Shown here piece after piece: positions 1 to 28,300 of a stretch of DNA of 33,842 bases. A program made the translations under genes and the position numbers. Below the pieces are notes generated by a model. It searched no databases, was not told where the DNA came from, and saw nothing but the letters and a program-made list of their open reading frames with translations. How positions within the stretch are numbered: the first letter of the stretch is position 1; the number at the start of each line of letters is the position of its first letter. Origin of the DNA: Pseudomonadota bacterium (GTDB taxonomy: Bacteria > Pseudomonadota > Gammaproteobacteria > Steroidobacterales > Steroidobacteraceae); the NCBI GenBank assembly GCA_021849615.1, contig JAJZSQ010000022.1:1-33842 (forward strand). The letters run 5' to 3'.

Positions 1-617
1 GCCGCCACCGGTTGCACGTTGTGGTAGTCGAGCCCATGGCCCGCATGCACCTCGAGGCCAAGCCGCGCGGCGAGCTCCGCGCCGCTCGCGAGCCGCTCGA
101 GCTCGCGGGCGCGCGCCGCGCCGCTCGCCTCCGCGTACGCGCCCGTATGCAGTTCGATCGCCGGCGCCCCGGCGCGCGCACTCGATTCGATCTGGGTCGG
201 CTCCGGATCGATGAACAGCGCCACCCGCACACCGCTCGCGCTGAGTCGCGCCACGGCCGCGCGCACCCGCTCGAGCTGACCGGCAACCTCGAGCCCGCCC
301 TCGGTGGTGAGCTCCTGGCGCTTCTCCGGCACCAGGCAGCAGTGCTGCGGGCGGACCTCGCAGGCGATGCCGATCATCTCCTCGGTGACGGCCATCTCGA
401 GGTTCATGGCGGTCTTGAGCAGTCCGCGCAGAGTACGCACGTCAGCATCCTGGATGTGGCGGCGATCCTCGCGCAGGTGCAGCGTGATGCTGTCGGCGCC
501 GGCGCGCTCGGCCTCGAGCGCGGCATGCACCGGATCGGGCTCGCGGCCGCGACGCGCCTGGCGCAGCGTCGCGACGTGATCGATGTTCACACCGAGGGCG
601 ATCGGGGCATGGGTCAC
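1..617 (-). CDS. pdxJ: Pyridoxine 5'-phosphate synthase, 3' end missing
   Basis: PdxJ condenses 1-deoxy-D-xylulose 5-phosphate with 3-amino-2-oxopropyl phosphate to form pyridoxine 5'-phosphate, the ring-closing step of vitamin B6 synthesis, in the cytosol. The reverse strand reads from a GTG at 617 with a GGAG ribosome site six bases upstream. The protein opens with a family-typical segment ([15 protein letters not shown], residues 8-22), then [12 protein letters not shown], the MNLEMA strand and the VPEKR(Q)ELTTEGG loop with its catalytic glutamate. About 205 codons are present of a usual 240-250, so the C-terminus lies beyond the left edge. No in-frame ATG lies near the conserved start. 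It is the last visible gene of the lepA-lepB-rnc-era-recO group, and the era-recO-pdxJ order is common in gammaproteobacteria. Confidence 0.95.
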
Positions 618-657
618 GGGATTCTCCGCAGCGCTGAAGCACCCCCGCACCGGGGGC

Positions 658-1419
658 TCATGGCGGCATTTTCCCGTAGCGGGCGGTCGGATGCGACCCC
701 CGCTTCAGCGCCTGGGCCACGCGGCGCGTGGCGAGCTCGCGTCCCTCGAGACACTCGGCGAGGGCCGCAGCGAGCAGCACCCGGGCGTCGGCGCGCGTAC
801 GTGCCGCCTCGAGATCACCGCACGCGAGCGCCTGCAGCGAGTATCCGGCGAGCACCCCGGGCTCCTCACTCGCCACCCGATAGAGCCCCTGGGCGGGCCG
901 GAAGCGGTAGAAACCCGCTGGCTCGATCGGCTGCCCGCCGACCTCGGTGGCCAGATCCAGTCCGTAGCCGACCGCACTCAGCAGCTCGAGCTCGAAGCGC
1001 CGCAGGGCCGCCTCCAGCGCCGCGAGCGCCGCGCCAGCACGCAGCCGCGCCAGTGTGGCCCCATACGCATCGAACAGCTCCGGGGCCGCATCGTGGCGCA
1101 GTGTGAGTTTCAGCAGCAGCTCATTGAGATAGAACGCGCTCATCACGCTCGCCGCCGGCAGCGGCGCGGCCGGTGCGGCGCACTCCGCCCCGGTGAGCTG
1201 TCCGGCGTCCCGGCCGTGGGTGAAGGACAGCAGCAGCGGCTGGAACGGCTGCAGCACCGGGGCGAGGCGCGACTTCGGACCGCTCACACCGCGCGCGAAC
1301 AGCGTCAGCCGGCCCTCGGCGCGCACCAGCACTTCGAGGATCCGCCCGCTCTCGCGGTACGGCCGATGATGCAGCAGGTAGGCCGGCGCGAGCTGGACGC
1401 GGCGGGCCGCGGCGCTCAT
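658..1419 (-). CDS. recO: DNA repair protein RecO
   Basis: RecO works with RecR and RecF to load RecA onto SSB-coated single-stranded DNA at gaps, and anneals SSB-bound strands. The 253-residue product begins [20 protein letters not shown]. Its N-terminal OB-fold region includes [11 protein letters not shown] and [15 protein letters not shown], which match the family, and the C-terminal part is helical. Length is close to the usual 230-250. I chose the ATG at 1419 because it overlaps the era stop codon in an ATGA junction. A start further upstream would run deep into era and add residues with no family resemblance. The four-base overlap implies translational coupling to era. No zinc-binding cysteines of the Gram-positive type are seen, as expected for Proteobacteria. 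Confidence 0.93.
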
Positions 1420-2330
1420 GAGTCGAGGCCCAGATCCTTCAGCGCCCGCGCATTGTCGGCCCAGTTCTCGCGCACCTTGACCCACAGCGTCAGGTGCAAC
1501 CGCTCCCCGAGCAGCGCGTTCAGCGTGCGGCGGGCGGAACTGCCGACGCGCTTCAAGCGCTCGCCGCCACCGCCGATGACGATCGGCTTCTGGCCTTCAC
1601 GATCGACCCAGATCACCACGTCGACCGCGAGCTGGCCGTCTTCGTGCTGCATCCGCTCGACCTCGACGGCGATGCCGTAGGGGACCTCCTGGTTCAACTC
1701 CAGGGTGAGCTTCTCGCGCACCGTCTCGGCGATGCGAAACGCCGTGCCGCGGTCGGTGAGCGTGTCGCGCGCAAAGAGCGGCGGGGACTCGGGCAACTGG
1801 GCGGCAATGGTGCGGATCAGATCCTCCAGGCCCTGCCCCTTCAGCGCCGAGACCGGCACCAGCGCGATGAACGGGTGGCGGGCGCTCAGTTCGGCCAGGT
1901 ACGGCAGCAGCCGCTCGCGCGGGCGGACCTGATCGACCTTGTTCACCACGGCGATCGCCGGGCGGTGCACCTGCGCGATGCGCTCGAGCGCGAGCTCGTC
2001 CTCGCCGTTCCAGGTCAGCGCCTCGAGCACCAGCACCGCCACGTCCGCATCGGCGAGCGCCGAGGTCGCGGTCCGGTTCATCGCCTTGTTCAGCGCCCGG
2101 CGCGCCTGGCGGTGCAGGCCCGGGGTGTCGACGAAGGCGATCTGGGCGTCGGGGCGCTGCACCAGACCGAGGATGCGGTGGCGGGTGGTCTGCGGCCGCG
2201 GCGTGACGATGCTGACCTTGGTGCCCACCAGCGCGTTGAGCAGCGTCGACTTGCCGACGTTGGGCCGGCCGACGAGCGCCGCGAAGCCACAGCGCAGCAG
2301 CGGCTCGGCGCCTTCAGGCTGATCGCTCAT
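1416..2330 (-). CDS. era: GTPase Era
   Basis: Era is an essential GTPase that binds the 3' end of 16S rRNA and helps assemble the 30S subunit. The 304-residue protein has the G1 loop GRPNVGKS at residues 21-28, the switch region PQTTRHRI near 46-53, G3 DTPG at 68-71, G4 NKVD at 130-133, and a C-terminal KH domain with the loop IVIGGGGERLKRVG. The ATG at 2330 is chosen because it starts just before the conserved GTPase fold. The reading frame stays open upstream, but only as the shadow of rnc. The gene begins inside the last 17 bases of rnc and ends in an ATGA overlap with recO, so rnc, era and recO are tightly coupled. Confidence 0.97.
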   Translation of the reverse strand: MSDQPEGAEPLLRCGFAALVGRPNVGKSTLLNALVGTKVSIVTPRPQTTRHRILGLVQRPDAQIAFVDTPGLHRQARRALNKAMNRTATSALADADVAVLVLEALTWNGEDELALERIAQVHRPAIAVVNKVDQVRPRERLLPYLAELSARHPFIALVPVSALKGQGLEDLIRTIAAQLPESPPLFARDTLTDRGTAFRIAETVREKLTLELNQEVPYGIAVEVERMQHEDGQLAVDVVIWVDREGQKPIVIGGGGERLKRVGSSARRTLNALLGERLHLTLWVKVRENWADNARALKDLGLDS

Positions 2331-3018
2331 CGGAGTGTTTTCCAATGCTGTCCAAAATACGTTCTGCCGCCTCCTGCTCGGCGCGCCGGCGGCTCGAGCC
2401 GCGGCCGCGCGTACACAGCGAGAGGTCCTCGACCGCGCAACTGACCTCGAAGGTCTGATCGTGCGGTTCGCCCTCGATGCGCTCGACCGCATAGTGCGGC
2501 AGCGCAAGCCCGCGCGACTGCAGGTACTCCTGCAGGCGGGTCTTCGGATCCTTCAGCGCCGCCGGCGGCGGCAGCGACTCGATGCGCGGTGCGAGCGCCG
2601 CGAGGATGAACTCGGCGGCGGCCTCGAGCCCGGCATCGAGAAACAGTGCCCCGCACAGCGCCTCGAAGGCATCGGCGAGAATCGACTGGCGGCGAAAGCC
2701 GCCGCTCTTGAGCTCCCCGGGGCCGAGCTGCAGCGCCTCGCCGATGCCGAGCCGGGCCGCCACTTCCCCGAGCGGCTCGGCGCTGACCAGCCGGGCCCGC
2801 AGTCGACTGAGATCCCCCTCATCGGCCTGGCCGAAGCGCGCGAACAGATGCCGCGCGATGACCAGATTCAGCACCGAGTCGCCGAGAAACTCCAGCCGCT
2901 CGTTGTTCGCACCCGAGGCACTGCGGTGCGTCAGCGCGGCACGAAACAGCGCCACATCCACCGGCGTGTGCTGCAGGTGCGTGCGCACCCAGCGCTCGGG
3001 CCCCTCTGCGTTATCCAC
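2314..3018 (-). CDS. rnc: Ribonuclease III
   Basis: RNase III cuts double-stranded RNA, processing the rRNA precursor and regulating mRNAs. The 234-residue protein carries the catalytic signature NERLEFLGDS at residues 39-48, with the metal-binding aspartate at 46, and a second acidic segment in the helix ADAFEALCGALFLD. A C-terminal double-stranded RNA-binding domain begins at the KDPKTRLQEYLQ segment. The start is GTG at 3018, giving MDNAEGPERW; it overlaps the end of the DUF4845 gene by eight bases. Length agrees with the family (about 226-235). In many gammaproteobacteria the rnc leader is itself an RNase III target; the start here lies inside the upstream gene, so any such target would have to be within that coding region. 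Confidence 0.97.
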   Translation of the reverse strand: MDNAEGPERWVRTHLQHTPVDVALFRAALTHRSASGANNERLEFLGDSVLNLVIARHLFARFGQADEGDLSRLRARLVSAEPLGEVAARLGIGEALQLGPGELKSGGFRRQSILADAFEALCGALFLDAGLEAAAEFILAALAPRIESLPPPAALKDPKTRLQEYLQSRGLALPHYAVERIEGEPHDQTFEVSCAVEDLSLCTRGRGSSRRRAEQEAAERILDSIGKHSDERSA

Positions 3019-3379
3019 CGCCGCTCACGTGCACGGACTTGTCGAACGCCACGCGCAGCGTGACGTTGCCGAACAGCGGCGCATAGGACACGTAGGCCGC
3101 CTCGACCTGGTAGCCCGTGCCGCTGCGACGGATGGTCACGTCCTGCACCGAGGGATAATTGACGCTGTCGATCTCGAAATGCCTCGAAATGGAGTTCTGG
3201 ATCTTGAACACGCTGGCGCCGCCACCCTGGAACTGATGGCTCACCTCATCGAGCGTGTGCGACACCTTCATGTAGTTCAGGTACACCGGAGCCAAACGCA
3301 GCCCGGCGTACAGACAGATCGCCAGCGGCGTCAGCAACACCAACCAGCCGATCAGAGTGATCCCGCGTTCTCGGCGCAT
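3011..3379 (-). CDS. DUF4845 small membrane protein
   Basis: This 122-residue protein matches the DUF4845 family, regularly found between lepB and rnc in gammaproteobacteria; its function is unknown. The N-terminus MRRERGITLIGWLVLL resembles a type IV pilin-like start (basic residues, then GITLI). A single hydrophobic segment at about residues 7-26 should anchor it in the inner membrane, leaving a periplasmic domain of about 95 residues. A GGAGG ribosome site lies seven bases before the ATG, and only 13 bases separate it from lepB. The position next to signal peptidase I and the pilin-like N-terminus suggest an envelope role, but that is inference from context. Confidence 0.85.
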   Translation of the reverse strand: MRRERGITLIGWLVLLTPLAICLYAGLRLAPVYLNYMKVSHTLDEVSHQFQGGGASVFKIQNSISRHFEIDSVNYPSVQDVTIRRSGTGYQVEAAYVSYAPLFGNVTLRVAFDKSVHVSGGG

Positions 3380-3392
3380 CGCTCAACCTCCG

Positions 3393-4487
3393 CTACTTGA
3401 TCTTCTTGCCGATCCGACTCCAGATCGGGCCGCCCTTGCGATTGATGTCCCAGTTGAACCAGATGTAAGTCGCCCGGCCGACCAGATTGCGCTGCGGGAC
3501 GAAGCCCCACACCCGGCTGTCGTCGCTGTTGTCGCGATTATCCCCGATCATGACGTAGCGCTTGGCCGGGACGTCCATCTCGACCAGCTTCTGCTCGAAC
3601 AGCGGCAGCGCGTCCGGCGGCGGGTTGCCGCCACAGATGTACCCGCGCGCGTCCGAGCGCGGGCAGGTCGGCAGCGGATCGGCGGTGACCTCGAGCGGCA
3701 CCGGGCAGAGCAGCACGTGGTGCACGTGGTGACCGAGATCCTCGGTGCCAAGCTGCATGTTCTGGTAGCAACCGTCGTTGTACGTCCCGTCGATGCGCAG
3801 CGGGATCTTCTTCCCGTTGATCGTCAGGCGGTCATCGTGCACCACCACGTGATCGCCCGGCAGCCCGACCACGCGCTTGATGTAATCCTCGGTGGGCTTC
3901 GGCGGATAGCGGAACACCACCACGTCGCCGCGGTGCGGCTCGCCGGTGGAGAGGATCTTGGTGTGCGTGATCGGCAGGCGCAGCCCGTAGGCAAACTTCT
4001 CCACCAGGATGAAGTCCCCGTCGAGCAGCGTCGGCATCATCGAGTCCGACGGAATGCGAAACGGCTCGAACAGGAACGAGCGCACCAGCAGCACCGCGAG
4101 GGCGACCGGGAAGAAGCTGCGCGCATAGTCGACGGTGGTCGGCTCCGGCGTGCTCAGCGGATCGCGGCCCGCGGCGGTGGCCGCCGCGGCACGCCGCGGC
4201 GACAGCAGCAGTGCATCGATCAGCCACACGATGCCCGTGACCACCGAGATCAAAAGCAGCACGGCACTGAAGTTCAGCGCCTCGGCGGCGAAGATGCGCA
4301 GCACCACCGCCACCAGCAGCACCGGCAGCGCCCGATAGCACCAGGCGACGAACGCCGGCTCGCGCCCCGGGGCGTCCGCGAGCAGCCGGCGCGGCTTGAG
4401 CAGCCAGTCATCGATCACGCACACCAAGCCGACCGGAATGGCGAGCCAGGACAGAACGATGATCAGCTGCATCACGACGGACGGCAT
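3393..4487 (-). CDS. lepB: Signal peptidase I (leader peptidase)
   Basis: LepB removes signal peptides from Sec- and Tat-exported proteins on the outer face of the inner membrane. The 364-residue product has the catalytic serine at 149 within IPSDSMMPTLLDGD and the lysine general base at 204 within DYIKRVVGLPGD, so the Ser-Lys dyad is intact. The late conserved box GDNRDNSDDSR is also present. Four hydrophobic stretches precede the catalytic domain (about 6-27, 48-66, 70-95, 123-140), more than the two anchors of the E. coli enzyme (324 residues). The ATG at 4487 has a GGAG site at good spacing. An upstream in-frame ATG at 4586 lacks one and would run through a strong hairpin. Co-transcription with lepA and the rnc group is likely. 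Confidence 0.95.
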   Translation of the reverse strand: MPSVVMQLIIVLSWLAIPVGLVCVIDDWLLKPRRLLADAPGREPAFVAWCYRALPVLLVAVVLRIFAAEALNFSAVLLLISVVTGIVWLIDALLLSPRRAAAATAAGRDPLSTPEPTTVDYARSFFPVALAVLLVRSFLFEPFRIPSDSMMPTLLDGDFILVEKFAYGLRLPITHTKILSTGEPHRGDVVVFRYPPKPTEDYIKRVVGLPGDHVVVHDDRLTINGKKIPLRIDGTYNDGCYQNMQLGTEDLGHHVHHVLLCPVPLEVTADPLPTCPRSDARGYICGGNPPPDALPLFEQKLVEMDVPAKRYVMIGDNRDNSDDSRVWGFVPQRNLVGRATYIWFNWDINRKGGPIWSRIGKKIK

Positions 4488-4517
4488 GGCGGCTCCATTG
4501 ACGAGTTTGGGCACGAA

Positions 4518-4558
4518 CCGGCAACACTGGGCGCTCGAGTGCGCCAGTCCGTTGCCGG
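4518..4558 (-). other. Long imperfect hairpin in the lepA-lepB spacer
   Basis: The left arm (4518-4534) and right arm (4541-4558) pair almost throughout around a six-base loop. Eight outer pairs are perfect (CCGGCAAC with GTTGCCGG), followed by a two-base bulge and another eight or so pairs. The structure would form in the lepB mRNA leader about 30-70 bases before the start codon. No run of T follows in the transcribed direction, so it is not a typical rho-independent terminator. It could affect lepB expression or mRNA processing. Confidence 0.6.
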
Positions 4559-4598
4559 GCAGCGAGGGAATCGTGGCAGAGGACATCGCGGCGGCACG

Positions 4599-6392
4599 CT
4601 ACTTGCGGCCCACTTGCAGCACCGCGAGGAACGCCGATTGGGGAATCTCCACCCGGCCGACCTGCTTCATGCGCTTCTTGCCCTCTTTTTGCTTCTCGAG
4701 CAGCTTGCGCTTGCGGCTGATGTCACCGCCGTAGCACTTGGCGAGCACGTTCTTGCGCAGCGCCTTGACCGTGGCGCGCGCGACGATCGCGCTGCCGATC
4801 GCCGCCTGCACGGCGACCTCGAACATCTGCCGCGGGATCAGCTCCTGCATCTTGTCGACCAGCTCGCGGCCGCGGTGATACGCATTGTCGCGGTGCACGA
4901 TGATCGAGAGCGCATCGACCCGCTCGCCGTTGATCAGGATGTCGAGCTTCACGAGCGGGGCGGCCTGGAAGTGCGAGAACTCGTAATCGAACGAGGCGTA
5001 GCCGCGGCTCACCGACTTCAGCCGGTCGAAGAAATCGAGCACCACCTCGGCGAGCGGCAGTTCGTACTGCAGCGACACCTGAGTGCCGAGGTAGAGCATC
5101 TTCTTCTGCACGCCGCGCTTCTCGGTGCACAGCTGCAGCACCGACCCGACGTGATCGGGCGGCACCAGAATGTTGGCGATGATGATCGGCTCGCGGATCT
5201 GCTCGACCTCGTTCAGCGGCGGCAGCTTGGCGGGATTGTCGACGTAGACCACCTCGCCGTCGGTGCGCGCCACTTCGTACACCACCGTCGGGGCGCTGGT
5301 GATCAGATCGAGGTGGTACTCGCGCTCGAGCCGCTCCTGCACGATGTCCATGTGCAGCAGGCCGAGAAAGCCGCAGCGGAAGCCGAACCCGAGCGCGCCG
5401 GAGACCTCCGGCTCGTAGTGCAGCGCCGAGTCGTTCAGGCGCAGCTTGGCGAGCGCATCGCGGAAGCTCTCGTAGTCCTCGGCGTTCACCGGGAACACCC
5501 CCGCGAACACGCGCGGTTTGATCTGGCGGAACCCGGGCAGGACCTCGGTGCTCGGCCGGCTCTCGAGCGTGATGGTATCGCCCACCGGCGCCCCGTCGAT
5601 CTCCTTGATGCCCGCCACGATGAACCCGACGTCACCGGCGGCGAGCGTCTGTTCGACGATCGGCTTCGGCGTGAAGCGGCCGAGCCGGTCGACCGGGTGT
5701 GCCCGTCCGGTGGACACCACTCGGATCTTCTCCCCGCTCGAGACGCTGCCGTTGACGACGCGCACCAGCGAGACCACTCCGACGTAGTTGTCGAACCAGG
5801 AGTCGATGATCAGCGCCTGCAGGGGCGCGGCCGGATCGCCGCGCGGCGCCGGGATCCTGTGGATGAGCGCCTCGAGCAGCGCATCGACCCCCTCGCCGGT
5901 CTTGGCACTGACTCTCAGCGCGTCGTGCGCCTCGATGCCGATGATCTCCTCGATCTCGGTCATGACCCGCTCGGGGTCGGCCGACGGCAGGTCGATCTTG
6001 TTGATCACCGGCACCACCGTCAGACCCTGCTCGAGGGCGGTGTAGCAGTTCGCGACGCTCTGCGCCTCGACGCCCTGGGAGGCATCGACCACGAGCAGCG
6101 CCCCGTCGCAGGCCGCGAGCGAACGGGACACCTCATAGGAGAAATCGACGTGCCCGGGGGTGTCGATCATGTTCAGCTGGTAGCGCTGGCCGTCCCGCGC
6201 GTCGTAGTAGAGCGTGACGCTCTGCGCCTTGATGGTGATGCCGCGTTCGCGCTCGAGGTCCATCGAATCGAGGACCTGTGCGTGCATCTCACGGGCATCG
6301 AGCCCGCGGCACAGCTGAATGAATCGGTCGGCAAGCGTGGACTTGCCGTGATCGACATGAGCGATGATGCAAAAGTTACGTATGAGCCGCAT
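4599..6392 (-). CDS. lepA: Elongation factor 4 (LepA), ribosome back-translocase
   Basis: LepA is a translational GTPase that acts on stalled or mis-translocated ribosomes and affects 30S biogenesis. The 597-residue protein has the expected length. Its GTPase domain carries AHVDHGKST at 11-19, the switch I segment [18 protein letters not shown] and [11 protein letters not shown]. Further on come an EF-Tu-like domain 2, the EF-G-like domains, and the LepA-specific C-terminal domain ending in [19 protein letters not shown]. The ATG at 6392 gives the family-typical opening [18 protein letters not shown]. Upstream is a perfect -10 hexamer, so lepA is likely the first gene of the lepA-lepB-DUF4845-rnc-era-recO-pdxJ transcription unit. 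Confidence 0.98.
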
Positions 6393-6440
6393 GAATCCGG
6401 GCCGCGTGTTCTGCCGCGCCAGATTGTCAGCGGCGGGCGG

Positions 6441-6446
6441 ATTATA
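6441..6446 (-). promoter_or_regulatory. Probable -10 box of the lepA promoter
   Basis: The minus strand reads TATAAT here, about 48 bases before the lepA start, in an otherwise G+C-rich 119-bp gap. No good -35 hexamer (TTGACA-like) is seen 16-18 bases upstream. Recognition may therefore rely on the strong -10 or on an activator. Confidence 0.55.
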
Positions 6447-6511
6447 CCTGCAGATCGGCGCCGAATTTGCCCTACTTCACACCGTCCGGGCGTCGCGGCG
6501 CCGGGGTGTGC

Positions 6512-6760
6512 TCAGCCGGCACCGAGGTGACGGCTGAGCGCCGCGGGGTCGAAGCGGAAGCGGCACACGAGCGTCTCGCCGAGCAGCAGCACCGGGACCT
6601 GCAGCCCATAGCGGCGGGTCAGTTCCGGGTCGGAGTCGACGTCGAGCCGGCGCAGCGGGGGCAATGGGGTCCCGGCAGCGAACTCGTTCAGCGCCGCGAG
6701 CATCTCATCGCACAGCAGACAGTCCCGCCGCGAGATCAGCGTCAGGGTCGGGGCGCTCAC
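6512..6760 (-). CDS. Glutaredoxin-like (DUF836-type) small thiol protein
   Basis: This 82-residue protein has a thioredoxin-fold layout: a first strand (LTLISRRDC), a CxxC pair C14-LL-C17 at the start of the first helix, RRLDVDSDPELTRRYG, and the cis-proline segment VPVLLLGE. That is the pattern of the short glutaredoxin family often found beside lepA. It is likely a cytosolic thiol-disulfide protein; its substrate is unknown. It starts at GTG 6760, overlapping the rseB stop by four bases, so it is translated from the rpoE-rseA-rseB transcript. No signal peptide is present, which separates it from the periplasmic Dsb proteins despite its place in an envelope-stress operon. Confidence 0.82.
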   Translation of the reverse strand: MSAPTLTLISRRDCLLCDEMLAALNEFAAGTPLPPLRRLDVDSDPELTRRYGLQVPVLLLGETLVCRFRFDPAALSRHLGAG

Positions 6761-7797
6761 GGCGGTGGCACCGAGTGAGCGAACGAACCGCCTGAGAGCG
6801 CCGGGAACGACGCCGGCTGCGCCCGCACCGAATCGGCGATCGAGCGCACGGTGCGCGCCGGTGCCTCACCGACCGCGGTGACGCGGTGCCCATCGACGAA
6901 GGTAGAGAAGACGTTGGAAGCGCCCATACGCGCCGATTCTACCGCCGGATGCGCCGTTTGGCGCCGCGCGTGGCGGGTGACGAACACCGAGACCGAGGCC
7001 AGGCCGTCGGTGTACACCAGATGCTCGACCGGCCCCAGGGTCCCGGGCATGCTCTGCGCGACGTGCGTCGCCATGTGGAAGCCCGGCGGCAGCCACAACG
7101 CATTCCAGACCAGCCCGCCCTGCTTCGGCGGCGGCGCCCTGTTGCGCAGCCAGCGGTAGCCGGCCGTCGAGAGGTGCGGCTTGAAGGCCGCATCCGGGAT
7201 GCTGGGTTCGATGTTCAGGGTCGCGAAGGCGATCTGCTCGATCACCTCGCCGCCGTGGCGGGCGTCCCAGAGCTGGATTTTCAGCGGCAGCCCACGCCGG
7301 TCGATCCACAGCCGGTAGCCATAGCGATAGTCATCGCGCGGCATCACCGTCACGAGGCGCGTCAAGTGCTGATCGATGCGCTCGCGCGGCCCTTCGCGCA
7401 ACCGGTAGAACCGCTCGGTGTTCTTGTTCAGGACCGGCACGGTGCCGATCAGCGAGCTGCCCGGGGGCATCTGCTCGACCAGCGCCTCGCGCTTGTCGGG
7501 CAGGTAGCAGGTCAGGTTCGAGCCGGTGCGGATGAACTCCCGCCCCGAGCCGTCGAGCGACTGCAGCCGCTCCGAGACCACCCCGTTCTTCAGCCGGTGC
7601 ACGATGCGCAGCATCTGCACCTGCCCGCCCTCCCAATGCGCGAACGTGCCCTGGTAGTCGAGGGTGGTCAGGGCGTGATTCATCCGCTCGAGCAGCACCG
7701 CCGGCTCGCCGGCGAGCGCCGCGGCACTGCCGATCGCCCACAGCAGTGCCCAGGCGCCGAAGGCCCTGCTAGTGCGGCCGCTGCGTCGCATGGCCAT
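6757..7797 (-). CDS. rseB: Sigma-E regulatory protein RseB/MucB
   Basis: RseB is a periplasmic protein that binds the anti-sigma factor RseA and blocks its cleavage until lipopolysaccharide or misfolded-lipoprotein signals displace it. The 346-residue product has a signal peptide (MAMRRSGR, a hydrophobic core and AAALA before GEPAVLLERM). A MucB/RseB N-terminal domain follows, with the recognisable LDYQGTF and LTRLVTVMPRDDYRYGYRLW segments, and then a C-terminal domain with NALWLPPGF. The start is uncertain: ATG codons at 7797 and 7791 and a GTG at 7821 are possible, all inside the rseA tail. I use 7797 because it gives a compact signal peptide. Its position after rpoE and rseA fits the role. 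Confidence 0.9.
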   Translation of the reverse strand: MAMRRSGRTSRAFGAWALLWAIGSAAALAGEPAVLLERMNHALTTLDYQGTFAHWEGGQVQMLRIVHRLKNGVVSERLQSLDGSGREFIRTGSNLTCYLPDKREALVEQMPPGSSLIGTVPVLNKNTERFYRLREGPRERIDQHLTRLVTVMPRDDYRYGYRLWIDRRGLPLKIQLWDARHGGEVIEQIAFATLNIEPSIPDAAFKPHLSTAGYRWLRNRAPPPKQGGLVWNALWLPPGFHMATHVAQSMPGTLGPVEHLVYTDGLASVSVFVTRHARRQTAHPAVESARMGASNVFSTFVDGHRVTAVGEAPARTVRSIADSVRAQPASFPALSGGSFAHSVPPP

Positions 7798-8440
7798 GGC
7801 CGGCGGCCCGCCTGACGACACGGCGCCGGGGCGCGGGCGCGGGCGGACCGACCGCCGCCTGGCTGACCATCAGCGAGGACAGCAGACTGCCGCCACTGAT
7901 CGGCCAGGAATACGCACTGTGCGCCACGACATAATCTGCCAGCTGCGTCGGCGGCATGGGGGTCATCAGTTGCGCCGTGGTCGGCGGCACCACGTAGCTG
8001 TCCGCACCGCTGCTGCGCCGGCGCGCCACGCCGTCCACGACCGGCGCTGCCGCCACGCTCGCAACGGTCATCGGCGCAGCGGCGAGCACCGGTCCGCCGT
8101 GATGGGCACGCAGCCAGAGAATCGACAATGCCGCGACGCCGGCGGCGAGCCCGACACCGGAGAGCATTCGCACCCAGGGGGCCGAGGGCAGCGGCACCCC
8201 GTCGGTGCCCGTGGCGAGCTGCGGCTCGTGACTGAGCGCGGCGTTCACCCGGCCGGCCACTGCGCTTTGCAGCACCACGCCGCGCTCGGCGCGGATCACC
8301 GCCCCGATGAGCGCGTAGCGCCCCCAGCGCGCCTTCAGCGCATCGTCGCGCGAGAGCCGGCGTGCGAGCAGCTCGCACTCGCCCGCGGGCAGCTCGTCAT
8401 CGAACATCGCGGACAGCTGACTGTCGAGTTCCTCGTTCAT
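7769..8440 (-). CDS. rseA: Anti-sigma-E factor RseA/MucA
   Basis: RseA is a single-pass inner-membrane protein that holds sigma-E inactive. Regulated proteolysis by DegS- and RseP-type proteases releases the sigma factor. The 223-residue product opens with the family motif LDSQLSAMFDDELPAGECELL (residues 5-25), then a helical cytoplasmic sigma-binding domain with RWGRYALIGAVIR. One membrane segment lies at about 91-110 (MLSGVGLAAGVAALSILWL), followed by a proline- and alanine-rich periplasmic part. Its ATG overlaps the rpoE stop in an ATGA junction, ensuring near-equal synthesis of sigma and anti-sigma. The periplasmic domain differs from E. coli RseA, as is usual. Confidence 0.92.
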   Translation of the reverse strand: MNEELDSQLSAMFDDELPAGECELLARRLSRDDALKARWGRYALIGAVIRAERGVVLQSAVAGRVNAALSHEPQLATGTDGVPLPSAPWVRMLSGVGLAAGVAALSILWLRAHHGGPVLAAAPMTVASVAAAPVVDGVARRRSSGADSYVVPPTTAQLMTPMPPTQLADYVVAHSAYSWPISGGSLLSSLMVSQAAVGPPAPAPRRRVVRRAAGHGHATQRPH

Positions 8441-9045
8441 CCGAGTTCCTCCGTACGGCCCAGTCCTCCCTCGAACACTTCGCGCAAGCGTCGGTCAATC
8501 GCCTCGCGCGCCCGGAAAATACGCGACCGTACCGTGCCGACGGGACAGCCCATCGAGGCGGCGATCTGTTCGTAGGAGAGCCCCTCGAGCTCGCGCAGCA
8601 CGATGGCGGTGCGCAGATCCTCCGGCAACTGCTCGATGGCCGCGTTGACGGTCTGGCGGATCTCATCGGTCAGCACCAGTCCCTCGGGGGTTTCGGAATC
8701 CTTCAGTCGGCCTTGCATATCGTAGGACTCATCGATGCTGTCACGGTCAAAGTCGTAATCGACAGGGCTGCGGTCACGTGAGACGACCGCATTCTTCGCG
8801 GTGTTGATCGCGATACGGTACAGCCAGGTGTAAAACGCGCTATCACCGCGAAACTGCGGCAACGCCCGGTAGGCCTTGATGAAGGCCTCTTGAGCAATGT
8901 CCTCGGCTTCGGCGGGGTTACGAACATAGCGCGTCACCAGCTTGACCAATTTGTGCTGGTACTTGAGCACCAGCACATCAAAAGCACCCTTGTCGCCCCG
9001 TTGTACCCGGCGAACCAGGCTCAAATCGCTGACATCGGCGCTCAT
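8437..9045 (-). CDS. rpoE: RNA polymerase sigma-E factor (RpoE/AlgU)
   Basis: This is an extracytoplasmic-function sigma factor directing transcription of outer-membrane and periplasmic stress genes. The 202-residue product has the classic RpoE opening (DLSLVRRVQRGDKGAFDVLV). Region 2 includes EAEDIAQEAFIKAYRAL and FYTWLYRIAINTAKN. Region 4 has a helix-turn-helix at SYEQIAASMGCPVGTVRSRI. The ATG at 9045 is preceded by AGAGGG at seven-base spacing. The frame stays open upstream through the intergenic region, but those residues are not family-like. A sigma-E-type promoter sits about 50-78 bases before the start, consistent with autoregulation. rseA, rseB and a glutaredoxin-like gene follow in overlapping frames. 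Confidence 0.97.
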   Translation of the reverse strand: MSADVSDLSLVRRVQRGDKGAFDVLVLKYQHKLVKLVTRYVRNPAEAEDIAQEAFIKAYRALPQFRGDSAFYTWLYRIAINTAKNAVVSRDRSPVDYDFDRDSIDESYDMQGRLKDSETPEGLVLTDEIRQTVNAAIEQLPEDLRTAIVLRELEGLSYEQIAASMGCPVGTVRSRIFRAREAIDRRLREVFEGGLGRTEELG

Positions 9046-9095
9046 TGCGCGCCCTCTGCTCCTGAATGTAAGAAGGCCGCCCGCGCCGCGACCTG

Positions 9096-9123
9096 AATAG
9101 ACCCTGAAGCTTCGGATAAGTTC
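9096..9123 (-). promoter_or_regulatory. Sigma-E-type promoter of rpoE
   Basis: On the minus strand GAACTT (9123-9118) is followed by exactly 16 bases and then TCTATT (9101-9096). This closely matches the known sigma-E/AlgU pattern GAACTT-N16-TCnnA. It lies in the 121-bp gap between sdhE and rpoE and would start transcription about 45 bases before the rpoE ATG, fitting positive autoregulation. Confidence 0.75.
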
Positions 9124-9166
9124 AGATGTCTCCACACCTCCCGAGGTCCCCGGAGGCGGGTCCCGA

Positions 9167-9442
9167 TCATGCCCCCGCCCTGGGGCCTGCGCCAGCGGCC
9201 GCGAGAACCCGACCGACGAGCCCGGCAAACGCGGGGTCGGCCGGCACCTCACCGGCGAGCAGGTAGCGGGCCAGCTCCGGGTCCGGCAGTTCGAGCAGCC
9301 GCTCGAGCAGCGCGCGCTCCTCCTGTGCGGCACTGGCCAAGGTTGCGTCTAGGTAGACTTCAAACAGGACGTCGAGTTCCTTCATGCCGCGCCGGCAGCG
9401 CCAGCGCAGCCGGCGCCCCTCGACATCGAGCGGTGCGTGCAC
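9167..9442 (-). CDS. sdhE: SdhE, FAD assembly factor for succinate dehydrogenase
   Basis: SdhE (YgfY/CptB, SDHAF2 family) promotes covalent attachment of FAD to SdhA. The 91-residue product contains the hallmark RLRWRCRRGMKELD segment, including the RGxxE motif needed for flavinylation, and an LLELPDPELARYLL helix typical of the family. No ATG precedes the conserved region. I chose the GTG at 9442, five bases after the sdhB stop, giving a start VHAPLDVEGRRLRW; its ribosome site is weak. Position at the end of the sdh operon fits co-expression with its SdhA client. The C-terminal alanine-glycine tail is slightly longer than in E. coli. Confidence 0.92.
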   Translation of the reverse strand: MHAPLDVEGRRLRWRCRRGMKELDVLFEVYLDATLASAAQEERALLERLLELPDPELARYLLAGEVPADPAFAGLVGRVLAAAGAGPRAGA

Positions 9443-9447
9443 GTCGT

Positions 9448-10230
9448 TCAGCTCTGCCGCTCGATGAGCATCTTCTTGATCTCGGCAATGGCCTTGGCGG
9501 GATTGAGGTCCTTCGGGCACACGTCCGTGCAATTCATGATGGTGTGGCAGCGATACAGCTTGAAGGGGTCCTCGAGCGCATCGAGGCGCTCGCCGGTCGC
9601 CTCATCGCGGCTGTCGATGATCCAGCGATACGCCGCCAGCAGCGCAGCCGGTCCGAGATAGCGGTCGCTGTTCCACCAGTAACTCGGGCAGGCGGTCGAG
9701 CAGCACGCGCACAGGATGCACGCGGCGGGCCGGTCGATCTGCTCCTGCTCTTCCTTCGACTGCAGCCGCTCGCTGTCCGGCGGCGCCGGCGTGTGGGTCT
9801 GCAGCCAGGGCTTCACCGAGGCGTACTGGGCATAGAACTGCGTCAGGTCCGGCACCAGGTCCTTCACCACCGGCATGTGCGGCAGCGGATAGATGCGGAT
9901 CTCGCTGCCGAGGTCCTGCATCGAGGTGGTGCAGGCGAGTCGGTTGATCCCGTTGATGTTCATCGCGCACGAGCCGCAGATGCCCTCGCGGCAGGAGCGG
10001 CGGAAGGTCAGCGAGGCATCCACGCTCGCCTTGATGCTGATCAACCCGTCGAGCACCATCGGCCCGCACCCCGAGACGTCGAGCTCGAAGGTGTCGACCC
10101 GCGGGTTCTCCCCGGAGTCCGGATCGAAGCGATAGATGCGAAACGTACGCACTTCGCGCGCGCCCGCGGGCGCTTTGTGCGTGACACCGCCGCGGATACG
10201 CGAGTTGGGAGGCAGTCGGAACTCAGCCAT
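9448..10230 (-). CDS. sdhB: Succinate dehydrogenase iron-sulfur subunit
   Basis: SdhB passes electrons from the SdhA flavin to ubiquinone through three Fe-S clusters. The 260-residue protein has the 2Fe-2S cysteines at 80, 85, 88 and 100 ([11 protein letters not shown]). It also has the [12 protein letters not shown] block with cysteines 171, 174, 177 and 181, and later cysteines 228, 234 and 238 ([12 protein letters not shown]) that complete the 4Fe-4S and 3Fe-4S sites. All expected ligands are present. The N-terminus ([12 protein letters not shown]) resembles that of other high-G+C Proteobacteria. It lies 13 bases after sdhA and is followed at once by sdhE. Confidence 0.98.
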
Positions 10231-10243
10231 CGGAAGCCCTTGC

Positions 10244-12028
10244 TCAGTAAGTCCGCGCCTTCGGCGGGACAGTTTCGACGTCGTCGGTGAGCGTGTTCAG
10301 GTGCACCGGCCGGTACTCGAAGCGCACCTCACCCGGCCCTTCGACCGACACCAGCGTGTGCTTCATCCAGTTCTGATCGTCGCGGTTCGGATAGTCCTCG
10401 CGCGCGTGCGCGCCGCGGCTCTCGGTGCGGTTCACCGCCGAGCGGATGGTCGCGGTCGCCTGCATCAGCAGGTTCTCCAGCTCCATCGTCTCGATCAGGT
10501 CGGTGTTCCACACCAGCGAGCGGTCGCTGACGCGCACGTCGGCAAAGGACTGGTAGGTCTGCTCGAGTTTGCGCGCACCCTCGGCGAGCGACTCCCCGGT
10601 ACGAAACACCGCCGCATCGAGCTGCATGGTCTTTTGCATCTCCAGGCGGATCTCGGCGGTCGCTCGCGAGCCGTTGGCGTTGCGCAGACGATCCAGACGC
10701 GACACGGCGAGCTCCGCGCCGTCCTTCGGCAGCGGCGCATGGCGCGTGCCGGGTTTGATCAGCTCGGCGCAGCGGCGCGCGGCCTGACGGCCGAAGACCA
10801 CGAGGTCGAGCAGCGAATTCGAGCCGAGCCGGTTCGCCCCGTGCACCGAAACGCACGCGGCCTCGCCCACCGCCATCAGCCCCGGCACGACGCTGTCCGG
10901 ATCGCCGTCGCGGAAACGGACCACCTCGCCATGGTAATTGCAGGGAATGCCGCCCATGTTGTAGTGCACGGTCGGCTGCACCGGAATCGGCTGGCGCGTC
11001 ACATCGACGCCGGCGAAGATGCGCGCGGTCTCGGCGATGCCCGGCAGGCGCTCGTGGATCACCTCCGGCCCCAGGTGCTCGAGGTGCAGGTGGATGTGAT
11101 CGCGTTCGGGGCCGACGCCGCGGCCCTCGCGGATCTCGATGGTCATGGCACGGCTCACCACGTCGCGCGACGCGAGATCCTTCGCATTCGGCGCATAGCG
11201 TTCCATGAAGCGCTCGCCCTTGGCGTTGGTGAGGTAGCCGCCCTCCCCGCGCACCCCCTCGGTGATCAGACAGCCGGCGCGGTAGATGCCGGTCGGATGG
11301 AACTGCACGAACTCCATGTCCTGCAGCGGCAGCCCGGCGCGCAGCGCCATGGCATTGCCGTCCCCGGTGCACGAGTGCGCCGAGGTGCACGAGAAATACG
11401 CCCGGCCATAGCCGCCGGTGGCGAGGATGGTCATGTGCGCACGAAAGCGATGCAGCTTCCCTTCGGTCATGTCGAGCGCGATCACGCCGCGGCACTGCCC
11501 GTTCTCCATGATCAGGTCGATCGCGAAGAACTCGACGAAGAACGTCGCCGAGCGCCGGATCGACTGCTGATAGAGCGTGTGCAGCAGCGCATGCCCGGTG
11601 CGGTCGGCGGCCGCACAGGTGCGTTGCGCGGTGCCCTTGCCGAAGTGCGTGGTCATGCCGCCGAAGGGCCGCTGGTAGATCCGGCCCTGCTCGGTGCGCG
11701 AGAACGGCACGCCATAATGCTCGAGCTCGATGACCGCCGCCGGCGCCTCCTTGCACATCAGCTCGATCGCATCCTGGTCACCGAGCCAGTCCGAGCCCTT
11801 GACCGTGTCGTACATGTGCCAGCGCCAGTCGTCCTCGCCCATGTTGCCGAGTGCGGCACTGATGCCGCCCTGGGCGGCCACGGTGTGACTGCGCGTCGGG
11901 AACAGCTTGCTGATGCAGGCGGTGGACAGTCCCGCCTCGGCGAGGCCGAGCGTGGCGCGCAGTCCGGAGCCGCCCGCGCCGACGACGATGACGTCGTAGG
12001 TGTGGTCGATGAATTCGTATGTGCTCAT
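10244..12028 (-). CDS. sdhA: Succinate dehydrogenase flavoprotein subunit
   Basis: SdhA oxidises succinate to fumarate with covalently bound FAD in the TCA cycle and respiratory chain (complex II). The 594-residue product starts [20 protein letters not shown], with the dinucleotide-binding loop at 17-22. The histidine that binds FAD covalently is at 48 in [10 protein letters not shown]. Substrate-site segments include PTVHYNMGG and [12 protein letters not shown]. The ATG at 12028 has GGGAGG six bases upstream and overlaps the sdhD stop as ATGA. The open frame continues upstream only opposite sdhD and sdhC. Length matches the 588-residue E. coli protein. Confidence 0.98.
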
Positions 12029-23674: not shown

Positions 23675-24211
23675 GTGTGCGTATCGGACCGCGATGAGGA
23701 TCGGCAACTGTTCCGCGCCGCCATGCGCGGCGTGAAGCCGCTGCAGGGCGCGACTGCGGGCCCGCCGCGGCCGAAGCCGCCGCCCGCGGCGCGCTTCTCG
23801 CGCGCCGACCGGCTGGCCGTGCTCGAGGAGAGCCTGAACGGTGCGGGCCCGATCGACCCGGCACTCGCCGCCGGCGATGAGCTGGTGTTCCGCCGCGAAG
23901 GGGTGCCGCTCGGGGTGCTGCGCCGGCTGCGCCGCGGCGAGTACCGGGTGCAGTGCGAGCTCGACCTGCACGGACTGACGGTGCCGCAGGCGAAACAGGC
24001 GCTGCGCGAATTTCTCAGCGAGGCGCTCGCGCGCGACTGGCGCTGCGTGCGCATCGTGCACGGCAAGGGGCTGCGCTCCGGTCATCGCGGCCCGGTCCTC
24101 AAGGGCATGGTCGCCTCCCTGCTGCGGCGCATCGGACCGGTCCTGGCGTTCGTCTCGGCACGCGCGGTCGATGGCGGCACGGGCGCCATCTACGTACTGC
24201 TCGGCTCGTAG
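23675..24211 (+). CDS. Smr domain protein (SmrA/YdaL-like)
   Basis: The 178-residue protein ends in a Smr domain: [17 protein letters not shown] carries the DLHG motif, and [11 protein letters not shown] the HGKG motif, followed by [12 protein letters not shown]. Smr domains are nucleases or DNA/RNA-binding modules related to MutS2, and recent bacterial examples act on mRNA in stalled-ribosome rescue. The N-terminal [17 protein letters not shown] stretch is typical of the gammaproteobacterial stand-alone group. The start is GTG at 23675, with GGAGG four bases upstream. Its last 22 bases overlap the convergent truD end, so the two genes share a 3' region on opposite strands. Confidence 0.9.
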
Positions 24212-25257
24212 TCTTCGAGCACGAACAGCTCGCGCAGCACCGCCGTGGCGTACGCGCCGCGGGTGAGGCGGAACTGCAGCAGCACCCCGTCGGGCTCGAT
24301 CTGCGCCTTAAGTTCGCGCACCGCCAGGCGCAGGCTGCGCCGCTCCTGGCGCATCCCGGCAGCCTCGAGCAGCGCGCAGGCCGCCGGAAACCGACTCACG
24401 ATGTCCTTCTCGAGGTCCCGCACTGCGCCCTCGCTGTCCGGCTCGCCCCGCCCCCACAGTGGCCCGCTCGGGTGGATCTCGAGCCGCGCGGCTCGCTCGC
24501 GCAGCGTCGCATCCGCCACCTCGACCGCGAAATGACTGCCGCGCCCATCGAGCTGGGCGCGATCGCCCGCCTCGAGCTCGCACCAGCGGCCGGTGCGCAC
24601 CCGCTCGGCGAGCACGGCGTTGAACAGCAGGCTGCGCACCGCCGAGAGCACGAACCCGCGCTCCGACGGCCGCAACGCACCGGGATCAGCCGGCAGGTGG
24701 GCGAGATTGCCGCCCTCGCGGCCGAAGCGTTGCGGGCCGAAATAGTTCGGCACGCCATGCGCGCCGATGCGCTCGAGCCGTGCCTGCAGCGCCTGCGCCT
24801 CGGGGGGCGCTGCGCGCGCCCGGATGCGAAACCGGTTACCCTCGAGCGCCCCGCGCGGGAGCTTGCGCGTGTGGCCGTGTGCCTCGAGCACCTCGAAGCC
24901 CTCCCCGCGCACCTCGCTCCACTGCTCGGGCCCACGCGCGCCGCGCGGCACCGTGAACCACTGCACCGCCACCGCGCGCCGATCCTTCAGTCCGGCGTAG
25001 CCGACCTCGAACGGCCGGCAGCCGCCGATGCGGGCGAGCTCACCGGCCACCCAGGCGGTGTTGGCATCGCGTTTGCGCACCCGCAGCAGCACGTGCGCAC
25101 CGGCGCCGGCGGGCTCAAACCCGAGGCATTCCTCGACGCAGAAATCCTCCGGCTCGGCGCGCACCCGCACGCGCCCGAGCGACGCGCCGTAGGCCCGCGG
25201 CGGATCGAGCGCTGCAGCATGATCGCCCGGCGGCGTGCTGAGCTCGCTCAATGCCAC
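24190..25257 (-). CDS. truD: tRNA pseudouridine-13 synthase TruD
   Basis: TruD converts uridine 13 of tRNA-Glu to pseudouridine. With the GTG start at 25257 the protein is 355 residues (E. coli 349). The catalytic aspartate is Asp92 within GYAGLKDRRAVAVQWF, preceded by RVRAEPEDFCVEE and followed by EGNRFRIR and VPNYFGPQRFGREG, all family hallmarks. The start is uncertain: a TTG at 25251 that would overlap the upstream stop is an alternative, and neither has a clear ribosome site. The gene overlaps the end of the PNGase A-like gene by ten bases, suggesting translational coupling. The usual neighbour surE is displaced by smr. Confidence 0.94.
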   Translation of the reverse strand: MALSELSTPPGDHAAALDPPRAYGASLGRVRVRAEPEDFCVEECLGFEPAGAGAHVLLRVRKRDANTAWVAGELARIGGCRPFEVGYAGLKDRRAVAVQWFTVPRGARGPEQWSEVRGEGFEVLEAHGHTRKLPRGALEGNRFRIRARAAPPEAQALQARLERIGAHGVPNYFGPQRFGREGGNLAHLPADPGALRPSERGFVLSAVRSLLFNAVLAERVRTGRWCELEAGDRAQLDGRGSHFAVEVADATLRERAARLEIHPSGPLWGRGEPDSEGAVRDLEKDIVSRFPAACALLEAAGMRQERRSLRLAVRELKAQIEPDGVLLQFRLTRGAYATAVLRELFVLEDYEPSST

Positions 25258-27020
25258 GGCGATGCGCCGAGCAGATCGCAGCGTCTGGCATCCATGACGG
25301 CGCTGACCGCGTTGGCGCTGTTGACGATGGTGCGCGCATAGCACTCGGGCGCACCGTGGCCGCGGCGCTGGAACTCGTAGCGCTGCGAGCCGGACATACC
25401 CGAATGGCCGAGGAAGTTGAAGTTCGGGTCGAACAGCAGCGTGTCGGTGGCGCGCACGCGGTCGCTCAACGCCTGGCCGGCCTCGCCGTCCCAGGCCGCT
25501 GCGGTGCGCTCGCCGAAGTGCTGTAGCACCGAGGTGGTGATGGCGTAATCACCATTCACCTGCTGCGCCTGATCATAGGTGAGTGTGAGCGGGAAGCTCC
25601 AGGTGCTCACCCGGCGCTCGTCCCGCCGGTCCGCGCCGCTCACCTGCGTGACGGTACGCACGACGCTGGTGAGCGCGATCTGCTGGTCGTAGACGGTGTT
25701 GTTGATCGTATAGTTCTGCCGGTTGGCGAACTGGAAGTCCTGTTCGACTGAGGTGCTGCGCAATCCGTCCGGCAGCTCGAGGTAGCCCGAAAGGCGCGTG
25801 CGCACCGCGGAACTGACGCTGACCGAGCCGCTGACGCTGCCGCCGGCGCCGCTCGCCAGATCGGCAGTGACGTTCGGGGCGAGGGCCGGCACGTCGACCT
25901 CCGTGACCGCGCCGCGGATCGAGCTGAGGCGCATATCCTGGTACACGAGCAGGCTCGCGGCCACGGAGAAGTAGTTTCCATCGTTGTAGACACTGACGGC
26001 GATGGTGTGCGGCTTGCCGTTGTCGAGCTCGGCGGCGAGCGGCGTCAGGTCGACGCGAAACGGCTTGAAATTCAGCGTTTGCACGCCCGGCGTCGGCTGC
26101 CAGAGGAACGGATCGATGCCGCCGGTGAAGATCCACGGCGAGACCGGCGCATAGGCAACGGTGCGCCCGTCGACTTCGACCACCACCTGACGATAACCGC
26201 TGCTGCCGCAGCTCTGCAGCTCTTGGACATACTGATCGGGCACGCAGGTGTACCAGAACTCGTCCCCGATCTGGCTCTGCGCGGTGACCTCGAGGTACAC
26301 GTGCGTCATATTGGTCGGGAAGGTGATCTGCTGCGAGAGCTGCTGTGCGGGCGTATCGAGGTAGCTCGGCTGGTTGGCGCTGTTGAGCGGATAGACCGCC
26401 GAGGGCGCCGTGCCCCGCACGCGTCCGTCGGCGCGCGCCGCACCTTCCTCGCCGTCCTCGCCATGGGGCGCCGGGTAGAAATACAGATAGCCGCTGCCGT
26501 GGATCACGCCGGTGTAGGTGCTGTTGACGATGTTGAAAATCGTCGCAGCCCCCGACTGCGGCTCAGCGAGCAGCGCGCTGTAGTCGGTCACGTCGCGCTC
26601 GACCGTCCAGAGCGGACCGACGCTCGAGGTCGGCTCCGGTGTGGTGCCGAAATACAGCGCCGCGTTGCCGAGAAACACGTACGCGCTGCGGTCGTACTGC
26701 ACCCCGGCGTTCTCGTTGAAGTGCGCCACGAACACGACTTTCGCCCACGGACCGGGGCAGCCGGCCGGCGGGCTATAGGTGAACGGCAGCGGCGCGTACA
26801 CATCGAACGTGTCGGACTGAAAGAGAGTCACGATGCACGGTCGGGTCGGCGGATGGGCGACGAGCAAGTCGGCCGTGGCGACGTTCTGCTGACCGATCTG
26901 CGGCTTCGGCGGGACGTTCAGCCCGCCGCCGGCGTCCCCGGCCGCCGCCAGTGGCAGCGCGAGACTCCCGAGCATGCCGAGCAGCACCGCGCACAGTGCC
27001 GATTTCAGTTGCGTTCGCAT
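25248..27020 (-). CDS. Secreted peptide:N-glycanase A-like protein (PF12222-type)
   Basis: Plant-type PNGase A hydrolyses the amide between asparagine and N-linked glycans. The 590-residue protein begins with a signal peptide (MRTQLKSALCAVLLGMLGSL, cut near residue 27). The N-terminal signature follows: DTFDVYAPLPFTYSPP, CPGPWAKVVF (88-97), GVQYDR (106-111), TTPEP (126-130) and WTVERDVTDYSALL (138-151). NSTYTGVIHGSGYLYFYP follows these. The same blocks in the same order define the plant enzyme and the acid-active bacterial PNGase H+ group. Two cysteines near 61 and 88 may form a disulfide. The ATG at 27020 has AGGGGG close upstream. It lies 126 bp after ispF and overlaps truD by ten bases. 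I infer export and deglycosylation from the family; activity is not shown. Confidence 0.82.
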   Translation of the reverse strand: MRTQLKSALCAVLLGMLGSLALPLAAAGDAGGGLNVPPKPQIGQQNVATADLLVAHPPTRPCIVTLFQSDTFDVYAPLPFTYSPPAGCPGPWAKVVFVAHFNENAGVQYDRSAYVFLGNAALYFGTTPEPTSSVGPLWTVERDVTDYSALLAEPQSGAATIFNIVNSTYTGVIHGSGYLYFYPAPHGEDGEEGAARADGRVRGTAPSAVYPLNSANQPSYLDTPAQQLSQQITFPTNMTHVYLEVTAQSQIGDEFWYTCVPDQYVQELQSCGSSGYRQVVVEVDGRTVAYAPVSPWIFTGGIDPFLWQPTPGVQTLNFKPFRVDLTPLAAELDNGKPHTIAVSVYNDGNYFSVAASLLVYQDMRLSSIRGAVTEVDVPALAPNVTADLASGAGGSVSGSVSVSSAVRTRLSGYLELPDGLRSTSVEQDFQFANRQNYTINNTVYDQQIALTSVVRTVTQVSGADRRDERRVSTWSFPLTLTYDQAQQVNGDYAITTSVLQHFGERTAAAWDGEAGQALSDRVRATDTLLFDPNFNFLGHSGMSGSQRYEFQRRGHGAPECYARTIVNSANAVSAVMDARRCDLLGASPWH

Positions 27021-27146
27021 GGTGACCCCCTGATGGTGCGGACCGCGATCCCCGTCGGCGGGAAGGCCGGCCCGGCGTGCTGTTGTGATTCGACGGCGAC
27101 CCGGGGATAACGCTAGCACGCGCCGCCCTGCGCTGCCAGCGTCCGC

Positions 27147-27623
27147 TCAGCGCGCCTCGAGCAGCAGCACCACGGCCTGGGCGCCAATGCCCTCGGCGCG
27201 GCCGAGGAAGCCGAGCTTCTCGGTGGTGGTCGCCTTGACGTTGACCGCCTCGGGCGGCACGTCGAGCAGTTCCGCGATGCGCGCGCGGATCACCTCGCGG
27301 TGCGGGCCAATCTTCGGCCGCTCGGCGAGCAGGGTCAGATCCGCGTTGCCGACGCGCCAGCCGCGCGCGCGCAGCAACCCGAGCGTATGGGTGACGAAGC
27401 CGGCGCTGTCGGCGCCCTTCCAGCGCGGATCGGTGTCACTGAAGTGTTGACCGATGTCGCCGAGCCCGGCGGCTCCGAGCAGCGCGTCGGTGAGCGCGTG
27501 CAGCAGCACGTCGCCGTCAGAATGTGCGAGCACGCCCTGGGTGTGCGCCACCGGCACCCCGCCGAGCATCACGTGCTCGCCGGGACCGAATGCGTGCACG
27601 TCGAAACCCGTACCGACTCTCAT
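27147..27623 (-). CDS. ispF: 2-C-methyl-D-erythritol 2,4-cyclodiphosphate synthase
   Basis: IspF makes 2-C-methyl-D-erythritol 2,4-cyclodiphosphate in the MEP isoprenoid pathway. The 158-residue protein has the zinc-binding GFDVHAF at 6-12 (Asp8, His10), then [20 protein letters not shown] with its histidine ligand. [11 protein letters not shown] and the late [15 protein letters not shown] segment complete the family pattern. Length matches the family (about 160). It starts in the ispD stop (ATGA overlap at 27620-27623), as in E. coli, where ispD and ispF are also adjacent. Confidence 0.97.
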
Positions 27624-28300
27624 GCCGAGGCCTCCAGCAAAGCCGCGGCGAGGGTCAGATCCGCCGCGGTGGTGATTTTCAGGTTACCGGCCGAGCCGGC
27701 CACGAGCACCGGGCGCGCATCCAGCCACTCGAGCGCCTGCGCCTCGTCGGTGGGCACCCGCCCCGCCGCGTGCGCCGCATCGAGCGCGCGACACAGCGCG
27801 CCGTAGCGGAACATCTGCGGGGTGAGCGCGCGCCACAGTCCGGTGCGATCGACGGTGGCCGCGACGCAGTGCTGCGCATCGGCGCGCTTGAGCGTGTCGG
27901 CGGCCGGCACCGCGAGCAGCCCGCCGAGCGGATGCTCGGCAAGCTCGCCGAGGAGACGTTCGAGATCCTCCGGTGCCAGGCAAGGCCGGGCCGCATCGTG
28001 CACCAGCACCCAGTCCTCGGCGGCGGCGCGCGGCGCGAGCGCTGCGAGCGCATTGCGCACCGAGTGACTGCGCTCGGCCCCGCCGGCCACCGTCATGACC
28101 CCGGGTGGAGCCACTTCGGGCCAGTACGGATCATGCGCGGCGAGCGCCACCAGGGCGCCCGCGCAGCGCTCATCGGCGAGGAACGGTGCAAGCGCCCACT
28201 GGATCACCGTACGCCCGCGCAGCGGCGCGTACTGCTTGGGCCGCTCGGAGCCGAACCGCCGGCCGATTCCGGCCGCCGGCATCACCAGCCAGTAGCGCAT
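27620..28300 (-). CDS. ispD: 2-C-methyl-D-erythritol 4-phosphate cytidylyltransferase
   Basis: IspD transfers CMP from CTP to 2-C-methyl-D-erythritol 4-phosphate in the MEP pathway. The 226-residue protein begins with the nucleotide-binding loop [17 protein letters not shown]. It continues with [15 protein letters not shown], the VHDAARPCL segment and [10 protein letters not shown], all standard for the family. It sits three bases after the ftsB stop and overlaps ispF by four bases. The ftsB-ispD-ispF order is conserved in gammaproteobacteria. Confidence 0.97.

Follow-up and report, generated by a model that had tools for sequence, protein, structure and literature searches.

Bacterial acid peptide:N-glycanases, the PNGase H+ enzymes, have already been expressed and assayed (PMC4231336, PMC7348039). 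The relatives assayed so far release N-glycans at pH 2 to 2.6 (PMC4231336, PMC7348039), with a pH optimum of 2.6 for the Terriglobus roseus enzyme, and the substrates tried on them were eukaryotic N-glycoproteins (PMC4231336). Activity is reported for the enzymes of T. roseus, Dyella japonica, Frateuria terrea, Xanthomonas theicola, Acidobacterium capsulatum and Kutzneria albida (PMC4231336, PMC7348039). Among 13 homologues expressed in E. coli, six were clearly active (Tr, Xt, Ac, Ka, Ft, Dj) and seven showed negligible activity, so membership in the Pfam family PF12222 does not guarantee activity (PMC7348039). As to the purpose of such enzymes in bacteria, the authors of the T. roseus study themselves offer only speculation (PMC4231336).

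Here, we describe a gene of this family in a stretch of 33,842 nucleotides (the window) from a genome of the Steroidobacteraceae (G000; 218 contigs, 87% complete), in which it is the single PF12222 match. The features discussed below are the following.

25248..27020, minus strand: PNGase A / PNGase H+ type protein, 590 aa (PF12222; match to 9vla, "PNGase Bb")
24190..25257, minus strand: truD (PF01142, E 4.2e-57), probable GTG start at 25257
27147..27623, minus strand: ispF (PF02542, E 7.2e-65)
27021..27146, minus strand: gap of 126 bases between ispF and the PNGase gene, a possible promoter, with a GTGCTAGCGTT element that is similar in other ispF-truD carriers
26940..27020, minus strand: probable Sec signal peptide, residues 1-27 (MRTQLK... 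to LPLAAA), by eye
26688..26696, minus strand: codons of Y109-D110-R111, candidate catalytic Asp and adjacent Arg (D110 and R111 in 32/32 aligned rows)
26256..26264, minus strand: codons of D253-E254-F255, candidate catalytic Glu (E254 and F255 in 32/32 aligned rows)

The 590-aa frame runs from an ATG at 27020 to a stop at 25250-25248. The coordinates 25248-27020, given in a preliminary description of this DNA, are correct, and the strand, which it did not give, is minus. The sequence blocks that it listed (CPGPWAKVVF, GVQYDR, TTPEP, WTVERDVTDYSALL and NSTYTGV) were all found in the translation, and the ispF and truD flanks that it proposed are borne out by Pfam: the neighbors match IspF (YgbB), TruD and IspD, with ispD and ispF upstream of the PNGase gene and truD downstream. 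Its overlap with the truD start amounts to 10 bases shared with the PNGase stop, given a truD start at GTG 25257; at this position, the truD of a related locus (L003) has ATG. The overlap may now couple the translation of the two genes. On the other side, a GTGCTAGCGTT or TGCTAGCGTT-like element lies 91-96 bases upstream of the PNGase start codon in five intact carriers (about 95 in the window), and a similar TGCTAGCGTT-like element is present in two broken carriers; TAGC is absent from the ispF-truD junctions of G163 and G204. A search of positions 24900-27800 for sigma-70 promoters and terminators returned none, and the gap that holds the GTGCTAGCGTT element has no match to the sigma-70 consensus. 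In the neighboring ispD, the match at L068 and L072 (genomes G201 and G191) is split in two with 150 bases between the parts, as with an insertion.

PF12222 matches residues 76-347 with an E of 4.2e-50 (170.9 bits versus a curated cut-off of 25.3), and this profile search, which the preliminary description had proposed, confirms the PNGase A N-terminal family identity. The nearest solved chain, 9vla, is matched by the single sequence over window protein residues 53-453 (E 6e-42) and by a profile of the window protein and 20 relatives (21 rows) over profile positions 29-563 of 571 (E 2e-85). This profile reaches residue 547 of the 561 of 9vla; the C-terminal Pfam domain PF25156 gave no match at E up to 1, and an NCBIfam search of the window protein gave none. 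Relatives were found at 23 loci of a prokaryote-only collection, comprising five proteobacterial MAG loci at 69-94% identity and eighteen loci at 36-43%, of which 15 are Acidobacteria by title; alignment A1 comprises 20 of the 23, L005 being omitted as broken and L009 and L020 as truncated or of uncertain start. Among 14 control genomes, the sole PF12222 match was in Sulfolobus acidocaldarius. The label "plant-type", used initially, is right insofar as the protein is of PNGase A type, but it is not the best one, since the prokaryotic relatives are chiefly Acidobacteria and bacterial acid enzymes have been published. Judged by its sequence, the window protein is a new member of the already known PNGase H+ kind.

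C62, C88, W92, D110, R111, E254 and W307 are conserved in all 32 aligned rows, the broken L005 among them. D110, R111 and E254 would correspond to Asp60, Arg61 and Glu206 of PNGase F, suggesting a catalytic role for these residues. By eye, the N-terminus shows a basic start, a hydrophobic stretch and an AAA site, and intact relatives start similarly. The initial claim that the protein is exported thus agrees with a signal-like N-terminus judged by eye, from which we infer export itself.

The same description had pointed to a G+C content slightly below that of the neighbors as a sign of acquisition. The content is indeed lower (66.7%, fifth lowest of 27 window genes delimited by eye), but at z -0.9 this is uninformative. 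Third-position G+C (z -0.15) and codon usage (12th of 27 counting from the odd end) are equally unremarkable, and the reading of acquisition from composition fails: compared with the 27 window genes, the PNGase gene shows no foreign base composition or sign of recent arrival. Acquisition itself is supported by the restriction of the family to one of 72 sampled genera of the order and by empty junctions in 22 of 30 genomes, as detailed below.

PF12222 was found in 13 of 58 genomes of the genus. In broader samples, it occurs in 9 of 200 genomes of the family, all from one of 25 genera, in 9 of 396 of the order, in 1 of 369 of the class (the window's own genome) and in 4 of 398 of the phylum, own genome included. 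Of the genera with a clearly active PNGase H+, Dyella, Frateuria and Xanthomonas are also gammaproteobacteria. Seven of the 13 genus copies lie between ispF and truD (G000, G211, G102, G119, G018, G111 and G080). The other six are 38-41% identical, and the surrounding sequence that was covered matched neither ispF nor truD. The idea that plasmids or phages carry the gene was considered and rejected, with one Streptomyces record in 72,556 (36% identity over 55%) and none in 50,697.

The ispF-truD spacing in relatives, a comparison suggested at the outset, was surveyed in 30 genomes, own included (the best 30, by TruD likeness, of 49 with a TruD match): six junctions hold the PNGase gene, 22 are empty and two are not visible. 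Where the junction is empty, 10-278 bases separate the ispF match from the truD match, with at most 46 in 18 of the 22 cases. G163 and G204, PNGase-free near kin in the same larger group, have gaps of 165 and 199 bases, in which a search for a PNGase remnant gave short matches only (lowest E 0.011). An insertion scar was likewise rejected, the flanking repeats being short and imperfect only. On a tree of four neighbor proteins from the 30 genomes, the junction state changes once, with a support of 79/87 (not starred). Most likely, the gene arrived between ispF and truD a single time, in the common ancestor of a small clade; since G163 and G204 lie inside the larger group without the gene, one gain plus one loss is also possible. 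Because the six other genus copies lie elsewhere, the place between ispF and truD looks like an accident of insertion.

A tree of 32 proteins was built without L011, the duplicates of L002-L006, the broken L031 and L044, and L089, a weak second copy in G1000 where no long frame with the motif was found. The six ispF-truD rows group as one clade with full support. Of the remaining six genus rows, five fall in a clade whose ten other members are all acidobacterial. A single clade for the 12 genus rows is rejected (p-AU 2.6e-5), and we read this topology as suggesting that PNGase was gained at least twice within the genus. The stem of the ispF-truD clade measures 1.46 changes per column and its identity to the nongenus alignment rows is 36-42%; its specificity may therefore differ. 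The tree tool warned of long branches meeting, L035 with L086 (included untrimmed, on a very long branch) and L087 with the ispF-truD clade, so that L035 is unsure as a third line and any donor of the ispF-truD clade read from this tree would be tentative. In four genomes (G200, G214, G215 and G211), completeness is 77-90% and contamination 3-6%; the second genus line does not depend on these alone, since G156, G175 and G192 share the neighbors downstream of PNGase. G156 and G175 are 94-95% complete, and in both a galU-like gene precedes the PNGase gene, among housekeeping genes (names by eye).

The five intact ispF-truD copies, compared in all 10 pairings, give dN/dS values of 0.19-0.31. In four of these five genomes (L002 left out), the corresponding values are 0.16-0.38 for truD and 0.03-0.17 for eno. 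Five of the seven ispF-truD copies are intact and under purifying selection. The other two belong to the sister species G111 and G080 (support 100/100). Neither has a start codon in the interval from the upstream stop to the PNGase match, and hence no signal peptide is in frame; the stretch with TTPEP and WTVERD is missing from both, and G080 has lost still more of its N-terminal portion. On these sequence grounds, we call both copies broken. Their remaining frames show a dN/dS of 0.33, which does not look like prolonged neutral drift.

The surroundings of one genus copy bear on its role. At L043 (positions 2-10896, genome G215), an apparent N-glycan utilization run encodes a pfkB-family kinase, a LacI-type sugar-binding protein, GH92, a TonB-dependent receptor, PNGase A and GH29, the arrangement expected for what would be N-glycan uptake and breakdown. 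For G215, completeness is 82% and contamination 6%. Farther down the same contig, a protein shares 63-75% identity with its counterparts in eight other genomes of the genus, a likeness that fits genus membership, and a stray contig is possible. A literature search on N-glycan loci found nothing. In the window's own genome, GH92 and GH29 are both present, on contigs other than that of PNGase. This GH92 protein (L083:8208-11612, contig C157 of G000) has at least 1,134 aa as delimited and shows Lactonase and YncE beta-propeller matches beyond its GH92 domains. At the acidobacterial locus L019, the PNGase copy adjoins GH29. Across the genus, the co-occurrence is weak: GH92 (one match below the cut-off included) is present in 10/13 carriers versus 22/45 other genomes (P = 0.07, not significant), GH29 in 8/13 versus 16/45 (P = 0.09, not significant), and both in 7/13 versus 8/45 (P = 0.015, uncorrected for kinship or for three tests). 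We consider, with moderate confidence, that the enzyme most likely serves to feed on N-glycoproteins.

We are fairly confident that the gene product is an exported PNGase H+ type amidase and that the gene entered the ispF-truD gap once, was mostly kept and was broken in two species. The enzyme, a member of the PNGase A family of EC 3.5.1.52 type, would act outside the inner membrane. It would split N-glycoproteins by hydrolysis where asparagine is linked to the innermost GlcNAc, probably with an acidic pH optimum, to yield Asp and free glycan. The glycan could in turn be degraded by exoglycosidases, for instance the GH92 protein whose gene lies elsewhere in this genome. After what was most likely a single entry in the small-clade ancestor, purifying selection keeps the gene in most members.

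A secreted protein that keeps the fold but binds glycans, or is otherwise altered, and has no glycanase activity seems unlikely to us. The long stem of the ispF-truD clade and the negligible activity of seven of the 13 expressed family members (PMC7348039) speak for it, as does the dN/dS of the frames remaining in two species that have lost the TTPEP..WTVERD block; however, the intact copies keep D110, R111, E254 and the family-invariant Trp and Cys residues, and their dN/dS falls in the truD range. It is harder still to see the gene as a vertically inherited ispF-truD neighbor whose function is linked to the two housekeeping genes; vertical inheritance in this place, combined with a lack of glycanase activity, would by the preliminary description have told against its own reading. 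The identical place in seven genomes, the overlap of the PNGase stop with the truD start and the wider gaps of G163 and G204, where loss is possible, would agree with this. Yet the gene is missing at 22 of the 28 visible junctions, six other genus genomes hold their copies elsewhere, copies are broken in two species, and the family is absent from the other genera of the order sample; we give vertical inheritance hardly any credence.

That the exported amidase is a factor against eukaryotic partners or prey rather than a feeding enzyme would fit the eukaryotic origin of the N-glycoproteins tested with its relatives (PMC4231336), but the sole genus copy with a rich context, at L043, sits among glycan uptake and breakdown genes. 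This factor is a very improbable reading, and of the two roles first proposed, nutrient release and attack on eukaryotes, nutrient release is the better.

To our knowledge, no bacterial glycanase acts on the N-glycosylated surface proteins of acidophilic archaea. A broader scenario, which we put forward tentatively and consider improbable, is that the genus repeatedly and independently acquired N-glycanases to feed on the glycoproteins of acid-loving neighbors, including such archaeal surface proteins, and that the long-stemmed ispF-truD clade is a specialized form. Heavy glycosylation has been described for the extracellular proteins of Sulfolobales (PMC4408177). From isolate codes, we would guess that the genus lives in acid habitats and that its relatives perhaps come from acid mines; the literature consulted on acid mines gave no link to these genomes, and our argument does not use that origin.

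What is new here is the history of gain and loss of the gene and not the kind of enzyme. Within one genus, a glycanase gene is found in at least two lines, has settled in a housekeeping run, has been selected and has then been broken, which makes it a test case for the purpose of secreted N-glycanases in bacteria. It also adds a divergent clade to a kind of enzyme employed in glycan analysis.

Among known enzymes, PNGase F carries out the reaction proposed for the window protein, with Asp60, the neighboring Arg61 and Glu206 in its active site, and zebrafish Ngly2, which catalyzes the same reaction, lost its activity when the residues matching those of PNGase F were replaced (PMC12753239). The PNGase F family gave no Pfam match with the window protein (E up to 1) and none in the PDB profile search (E up to 10). 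The plant enzyme PNGase A of almond belongs to the family that gave PF12222 its name, but it is eukaryotic and itself glycosylated (PMC7348039), and the T. roseus enzyme shares 28% identity with it (PMC4231336). PNGase Bb is a near-full-length relative by profile only, and a literature search on its name found nothing. The active PNGase H+ enzymes are, like the window protein, bacterial; they are described as related to PNGase A (PMC4231336, PMC7348039) and are of similar size, the T. roseus enzyme having 61.5 kDa and a predicted secretion signal (PMC4231336). The window gene differs from theirs in its genus and in its place in the genome.
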